Positions 2,438 through 3,475 of a stretch of 13,772 nucleotides of DNA are shown here, one piece after another (position 1 is the stretch's first letter; each line of letters begins with the position of its first letter). The position numbers and the translations under genes were made by a program. The DNA is from Acidobacteriota bacterium. Its GTDB lineage: Bacteria > Acidobacteriota > Blastocatellia > RBC074. Below the pieces are notes generated by a model that was not told the origin of the DNA, searched no databases, and worked only from the letters and a program-made list of their open reading frames with translations. Location: positions 1-13,772 of the forward strand of contig JABFSD010000611.1 of assembly GCA_013140935.1 (NCBI GenBank). Direction: 5' to 3'.

Positions 2438-3475
2438 ATGGCGAAAAGACTTACTGAAATGGTCGCTTGTGCCGGTTGAGCGTCTAAGCTCGCGCCCGGC
2501 GCACTCGCTCAGGTTCTGAGCGGGCTTCCATCACAACCACACAATCCAAACGTATTGGTTGGCTTCGACAACGCCGACGATGCGGGAGTCTATCGTTTGC
2601 GCGACGATCTGGCGCTGGTGCAAACGCTCGACTTCTTTACGCCCATCGTGGACGACCCCTTCGATTACGGACGCATCGCCGCGCTCAATTCGATCAACGA
2701 CGTATGGGCGATGGGCGGCACTCCGGTGACGGCACTGGCGATTACGTGCTTTCCCAAAAAAGGCGTGCCGTTTGAAATCCTCGGCGAAATTATGCGCGGC
2801 GGGCTTTCGATTCTGAACGAACACGGCGTCACGCTCATCGGCGCACATTCCGTGCAAAGCGAAGAAATCATGTTCGGCTATTCGGTCACAGGTTTGGTAC
2901 ATCCTGACGAAGTGGCTACAAACACGGGCGCGAAGGCGGGCGACGTATTGATACTGACCAAAGCCTTGGGCACGGGGATTATCTCGACGGGGATTAAATT
3001 CAAGAAAGCTTCGGCGGAAGTGGCTGCACGTTCGGTGAAAACCATGCTCACCGCCGGCAACCAAGCGGCAGCAGCGATGCGCGAATTCGGCGTGCGCGGC
3101 GCTACTGACATCACTGGTTTCGGTTTGTTAGGCCACGCTTGGGAACTCGCCAAAGGCAGCCGCGTTACTTTTGAAATCGAAGCCGCTTCCCTGCCCATCC
3201 TGCCCGGTGCGCTCGAACTCGCCGCGCGCAAAATGCTCACCCAAGGCGACAAAACCAATCGTAATTATGTAGGCAACGGCGTTACGTTCGAGACGGATGT
3301 AACGCAAAACATCGCCAGCGTCATGTTCGATCCGCAAACCGCAGGCGGGATGTTAATCGCCATCGCAGAAAATCAAGCTGAAGCGATGCTCGCACGCTTG
3401 CGGGAAAACTACTCCGACGCAGCAATCATTGGCCGCGTGAAAACGTTTGATCGCTTTTTTGTCAGCGTGCAATAA
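2438..3475 (+). CDS. selD: selenide, water dikinase (selenophosphate synthetase), selenocysteine-containing
   Basis: SelD makes selenophosphate from selenide and ATP in the cytoplasm. Selenophosphate is the selenium donor for Sec-tRNA synthesis and for 2-selenouridine in tRNA. The frame from the ATG at 2438 reads [13 protein letters not shown], then TGA (2477-2479), then [16 protein letters not shown]. This is the SelD active-site motif with Sec at residue 14 and the partner Lys at 17, matching Cys17 and Lys20 of the E. coli enzyme. The rest is typical: DDAGVY (about 47-52), [58 protein letters not shown] and [12 protein letters not shown]. The total of 345 residues is the usual family length. 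TAG at 2426-2428 bounds the frame upstream, so 2438 is the only sensible start; no Shine-Dalgarno is visible. A caller that treats TGA as stop would begin at TTG 2555 and lose the 39-residue catalytic end. The gene appears to be transcribed alone. Confidence 0.93.
2477..2524 (+). promoter_or_regulatory. Sec codon (TGA) with bacterial SECIS-like hairpin
   Basis: TGA at 2477-2479 is in frame inside selD. Downstream, CGCTCAG (2506-2512) and CTGAGCG (2516-2522) form a perfect 7-bp stem, extended to 9 by C2504-G2524 and a T-G wobble. The three-base loop is GTT, with G in first position, and 33 bases lie between the TGA and the loop. Bacterial SECIS elements need a stem-loop just after the UGA with a G at the start of a small apical loop. 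The apex CAGGTTCTG resembles the CAGGTCTG apex of E. coli fdhF. SelB would bind this hairpin. Confidence 0.85.

Follow-up and report, generated by a model that had tools for sequence, protein, structure and literature searches.

Bacterial SelD proteins of the selenocysteine (Sec) type (TIGR00476) carry Sec in an N-terminal loop, encoded by a TGA codon that is followed by a hairpin, and their Sec motif is given as UxxK (Table 1 in PMC13188914). In the bacterial SECIS (bSECIS) model of that paper, as laid out in its Fig. 2 legend, a loop of 3-9 nt closes a stem of 4-16 bp, with a G within the first two loop positions, a spacing of 16-37 nt and an energy of -7.5 kcal/mol or lower. For the phylum considered here, one table in PMC12013277 lists an Acidobacteriota genome with three known selenoprotein genes, and Acidobacteria go unmentioned in the relevant passages of PMC5029168; our literature search found no paper with both 'selenocysteine' and 'Blastocatellia'. 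The selD gene described below, from a bacterium of the class Blastocatellia, is a well-supported new example of the known Sec-containing type and not a new system. It shares with the described Sec-type genes the enzyme family, the predicted Sec in the N-terminal loop, the UxxK motif (U14-A-S-K17) and the order of TGA and hairpin.

The gene lies in a 13,772-nt stretch of contig JABFSD010000611.1 (hereafter, the window), with the following features, all on the forward strand:

2438..3475, forward strand: selD, 345 codons plus TAA, with TGA as codon 14, predicted to be read as selenocysteine (from the frame, TIGR00476 and 3u0o)
2477..2479, forward strand: the TGA codon for the predicted Sec14 (from the class comparison, with 79 TGA and 10 Cys codons among 89 readable genes)
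2504..2524, forward strand: predicted bacterial SECIS hairpin of 9 bp with loop GUU (from the fold, the published rules, compensatory changes and codon bias)
2516..2518, forward strand: CTG start of the stored 319-aa protein, inside the hairpin (from the stored record)
2555..2557, forward strand: TTG opening a 306-aa ORF, apparently an internal Leu codon and not the true start (from the ORF list)

The reading frame begins at ATG 2438, crosses a single in-frame TGA and closes with TAA 3473-3475, in agreement with the original prediction, which had been made from the window alone; the ORF opened by TTG 2555 is 39 residues shorter than this read-through frame. The product scores 361.5 bits with the SelD equivalog model TIGR00476 (cut-off 125), and a sequence search against solved structures matched it to chain 3u0o at 215.8 bits. 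The alignment with 3u0o is ungapped at the active site, where residue 14 pairs with position 17 and Lys17 with position 20; we take 3u0o to be E. coli SelD and its position 17 to be the catalytic Cys. The earlier reading of VACAG-U-ASKL as the SelD active site, with Sec in place of the catalytic Cys, agrees with this placement of the TGA. Four aspartates, D48, D65, D88 and D224, pair with Asp of 3u0o at the same offset, presumably at positions near the ATP site. A search of the source genome with the window SelD returned no match at E 0.001 other than this gene. There is thus strong evidence from sequence that positions 2438-3475 of the forward strand form one selD gene with an in-frame TGA at the probable position of the catalytic residue.

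We traced this position through 98 Blastocatellia (Acidobacteriota) genomes, the source genome included, counting SelD at 200 bits or more. SelD is present in 90 of these; one gene is cut by a contig end (G045, locus L109) and was left out, giving 89 readable genes. The active-site codon is TGA in 79 of the 89 and Cys in the remaining 10, so that the comparison with Sec- and Cys-type SelD proposed at the outset finds one or the other in every readable relative. The coding frame is conserved both before and after the TGA, and among these 89 genes we observed neither a start after position 2555 nor the TGA as an unconserved stop. All 10 Cys-type genes come from family f4 and form a single group in the tree (support 100/99), that is, one change between Sec and Cys, which may have run in either direction in this tree rooted at the midpoint only. 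The f4 proteins belong to the same enzyme family as the window SelD, at 40-45% identity, but differ in the Cys codon and in the hairpin, with no f4 gene carrying one that satisfies the bSECIS rules. Close SelD relatives at 23 loci of another collection are all assigned by title to Acidobacteriota or its groups, several of them to Blastocatellia. Across the phylum more widely, a SelD match at 1e-40 occurs in 196 of 297 sampled genomes, and many SelD among the matches listed have one TGA. In other Acidobacteriota, SelD matches lie inside open frames of approximately 750-1090 aa, perhaps fusions (G163, G334, G256, G176, G186, G109 and G112), and G096 has a full SelD and, away from it on other contigs, two SelD fragments (C94, C12, C296), perhaps a second copy.

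Downstream of the TGA, positions 2504-2512 pair with 2516-2524 around the loop GTT (2513-2515). The original prediction placed a hairpin of 7-9 bp, with G at the first loop position, 33 bases after the TGA; the G and the stem length, at 9 bp, stand, whereas the 33 nt separate the TGA from the loop, and the stem starts 24 nt past the TGA. At -12.7 kcal/mol, the hairpin satisfies every bSECIS rule, for loop, stem, G, spacing and energy, so the bacterial SECIS check that had been suggested comes out in its favour; yet Rfam yielded no family at gathering over the window and none at E up to 10 within 2430-2580, and for six relatives, the sole match was a sub-threshold microRNA family, with no SECIS. 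The bSECIS rules are satisfied by 62 of the 70 genes of the main lineage, to which the window gene belongs, by six of the nine genes of a divergent Sec lineage and by none of the 10 Cys-type genes. As background, 17 of 384 ordinary TGA ends (frames of at least 250 aa in the fetched loci, a set that may include overlapping loci and real terminators) satisfy the rules as well, nine being as stable as the window hairpin. Taken singly, the window fold stands out only mildly from shuffled sequence (z -2.04, with 6 of 200 shuffles folding at least as well), and the strength of the case for the hairpin accordingly rests on comparison.

Among the 70 distinct genes of the main lineage, the inner eight pairs of the stem are kept in 67 to 70 and the outermost pair in 34. 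The codons for Gln25 and Leu27 covary with the protein unchanged: CAA occurs with TTG in 43 genes, CAG with CTG in 17, CAG with TTG, which makes a G-U pair, in eight, and CAA with CTG in one, with CGG (Arg) and CTG in another. Codon choice departs from that further along the same genes: Leu27 is CTG or TTG in 70 of 70 genes (49% further along), Ala24 is GCT in 63 of 68 Ala codons (14.5%), and Ser28 is AGC or AGT in all 60 Ser codons (35.5%). For a covariation test with 500 shuffles, 31 of the 70 genes were hand-picked for diversity. The number of paired cells, the number of cells with a change on both sides and the covariation score were each above all 500 shuffles, and the score was also above all slid versions; for these 31 genes, the other two of the five measures, pairs with a change on both sides and further pair types, were not above the shuffles. 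The genes are related, so the changes in the stem do not count as independent events. As judged from these alignments, the hairpin is maintained by linked synonymous changes.

The window lineage differs from the divergent Sec lineage of the class (families f5 and f7) in the neighbourhood of the Sec codon. A Cys three residues before Sec is found in 67 of the 70 main-lineage genes, and none has a Cys two residues after it; in the divergent lineage, the Cys lies two residues after Sec in all nine genes and in none three before. The 10 Cys-type genes have a second Cys at neither position. All six f7 genes (L092, L093, L097, L103, L105 and L106) have a hairpin at 26 nt with the loop GGUCG, and the three f5 genes (L100, L101 and L104) have weaker stems elsewhere that fail the energy rule. 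Thus, the two SelD lineages differ both in hairpin distance and in the side of Sec on which the second Cys is found.

The source genome is 73.8% complete and comprises 1235 contigs. It encodes a tRNA-Sec (67.6 bits; called SeC by ARAGORN, anticodon tca) and a SelA over the cut-off (499 bits). No match over the SelB cut-off and no complete SelB were found in this genome at its 73.8% completeness; the top match of the SelB model, on contig C961, was rejected as its sequence is that of EF-Tu and its score is below the cut-off. At the end of contig C1070 lies a coding fragment for the C terminus of SelB, which shares 68.8% identity with the SelB of a congener across 125 columns, and the gene beyond this fragment is 61% identical to one near the congener selB, a long frame lying between the two in the congener. 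The expectation that the host carries selA, selB and selC therefore holds for tRNA-Sec and SelA, and for SelB only as a C-terminal fragment; a genome devoid of Sec machinery, which would have told against the prediction, is not what we found.

In the class as a whole, 90 of the 98 genomes are over the cut-off for SelA, 84 for SelB and 91 for tRNA-Sec, compared to one, two and five, respectively, of 14 control genomes; given the five controls, the tRNA-Sec cut-off alone is not fully specific. SelD, SelA, SelB and tRNA-Sec occur together in 80 of the 98 genomes. SelA, SelB and SelD are absent together from six genomes that are 92-99% complete (G051, G055, G057, G063, G073 and G088), five of which have tRNA-Sec scores below gathering and one a score of 47.6 bits against a threshold of 47. 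Several genomes do not conform to this pattern: G009 and G093 have SelA without SelD, and G041 and G054 have SelD without SelA (completeness 83-89% for G009, G054 and G093, and 94% for G041), and eight SelD-bearing genomes, the source genome among them, have no SelB over the cut-off. Nine of the 10 f4 genomes with Cys-type SelD pass the SelA, SelB and tRNA-Sec cut-offs, and G052 is without only SelB over the cut-off.

On these comparisons, we are close to certain that the window encodes a SelD whose Sec14 is specified by TGA and decoded via the downstream SECIS hairpin. Known biology suggests how this would work. SelD would make selenophosphate from selenide and ATP, with the Sec encoded by TGA 2477-2479 as its catalytic residue; SelA would use selenophosphate to make Sec on its tRNA; and SelB would bring Sec-tRNA(Sec) to the mRNA hairpin, with its loop 33 nt downstream, such that the ribosome reads TGA as Sec. 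SelB binding, Sec insertion and enzyme activity are all expected here by analogy. Since SelA uses selenophosphate, SelD would contribute to the selenium supply for its own active site.

The TGA might, instead, be a true stop, the mark of a pseudogene or a sequencing error, with SelD truncated or starting at CTG 2516 or TTG 2555. Automatic gene calling does stop there: the stored protein of the window starts at CTG 2516 and, at 319 aa, is 26 residues short, so that the annotation is shortened past Sec as anticipated, albeit by 26 and not by 39 residues. Furthermore, of 27 database SelD proteins that we fetched, 24 are full-length and cover the site, with C in 20, Ala in two, Gly in one and Arg in one; a C here may stand for Sec or Cys as U is written as C, and the counts say nothing on frequency because gene calling that ends at TGA enriches for such variants. 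Nevertheless, 79 of 89 genomes, independent or related, share this TGA within a frame conserved on either side, the rest having Cys, and a downstream start would remove the catalytic loop, so we regard this explanation as very improbable. We give still less credence to the reading of TGA through a general code change or leaky readthrough, without Sec machinery. The 384 frames of at least 250 aa in the fetched loci that terminate at TGA disfavour general reassignment of this codon, the hairpin is conserved, the class possesses tRNA-Sec, SelA and SelB, and six genomes without SelD have neither SelA nor SelB.

A third alternative accepts that Sec is encoded but holds that the hairpin is no SECIS and simply follows from conservation of the peptide LAQVLS. 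In support of this, LAQVL is kept in 18 of the 24 full-length database proteins with C, A, G or R at the site (some of the C may be Sec), and such retention without a readable TGA weakens the notion that the peptide exists only for the RNA. However, the peptide accounts neither for a codon choice at these residues that is far from that in the rest of the same genes nor for synonymous sites that change together, and the position, loop and energy of the hairpin fit the published bSECIS model; this possibility, too, appears highly unlikely.

Several other features of the window were recorded. An inverted repeat, AAAGCCTAT...ATAGGCTTT (2394-2426, forward strand), ends 11 nt before the selD ATG, with no clear ribosome-binding site after it; as a structured element it was rejected, its fold being no better than shuffles (z -0.92). 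Downstream of selD, 3878-4189 (forward strand) encodes a small DNA-binding protein of the MerR/excisionase type (HTH_17, 32.6 bits), and 787-1344 (reverse strand) encodes an IS1-like transposase, whose score of 59.9 bits falls short of the cut-off of 100. Three Rhs/YD-repeat frames (7666-8523, 8504-10090 and 10056-12470, forward strand) overlap in different frames, with the Rhs core domain in the last; the frame changes across 7666-12470 are either real or assembly errors. These frames are followed by one with a TreTu toxin C-terminal domain (frame 12470-13102, forward strand; PF24691, 100 bits) and, directly past it, by a 99-aa ORF (13163-13462, forward strand), a putative immunity gene if its position is a guide, which is a guess.

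Other uses of selenium were sought in the same genomes. The source genome has the Cys form of FdhA, with the sequence ARVCH; of eight fetched FdhA loci, five contain the motif, invariably with Cys, and none of the seven genomes (of 29) with Fdh-alpha over the cut-off has an internal stop in this gene. Selenouridine synthase is over the cut-off in one of the 98 class genomes and YqeB in two, neither being the source genome. A weaker FdhA-like gene with a TGA (L218, on contig C110 of G015) reads NRTUHAPS, so Sec-containing FdhA may occur in the class. A scan for conserved TGA codons outside selD covered 207 records (1.16 Mb, mostly around sel genes) and gave 898 positions; the best 60 of these, inspected by eye, looked like shadow frames of ordinary genes and were rejected as further candidates, a result that leaves room for other selenoproteins. 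In the comparison reported in PMC1794560, the selenouridine trait is absent from the Acidobacteria sequenced by then, with four selenoproteins in three families, and the Sec-decoding organisms without FdhA all had Sec-SelD, most of them along with the selenouridine trait. Against that comparison, the combination seen here is less usual, yet precedented.

It is conceivable, if unlikely, that Sec-SelD is the main or only selenoprotein of this lineage, in which case the Sec system would chiefly build its own supplier. More likely, the lineage has the usual complement of additional selenoproteins, because the genome is incomplete and the family search covered only FdhA, selenouridine synthase and YqeB. 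As FdhA of the source genome is of the Cys type and hardly any sampled genome has the selenouridine gene, the finding invites the question of which other selenium-dependent processes these bacteria have. It also shows that the stored annotation drops the catalytic residue of the enzyme. The 89 selD genes from a single class provide a comparative set for the exchange between Sec and Cys and for the retention of a SECIS inside a coding region.
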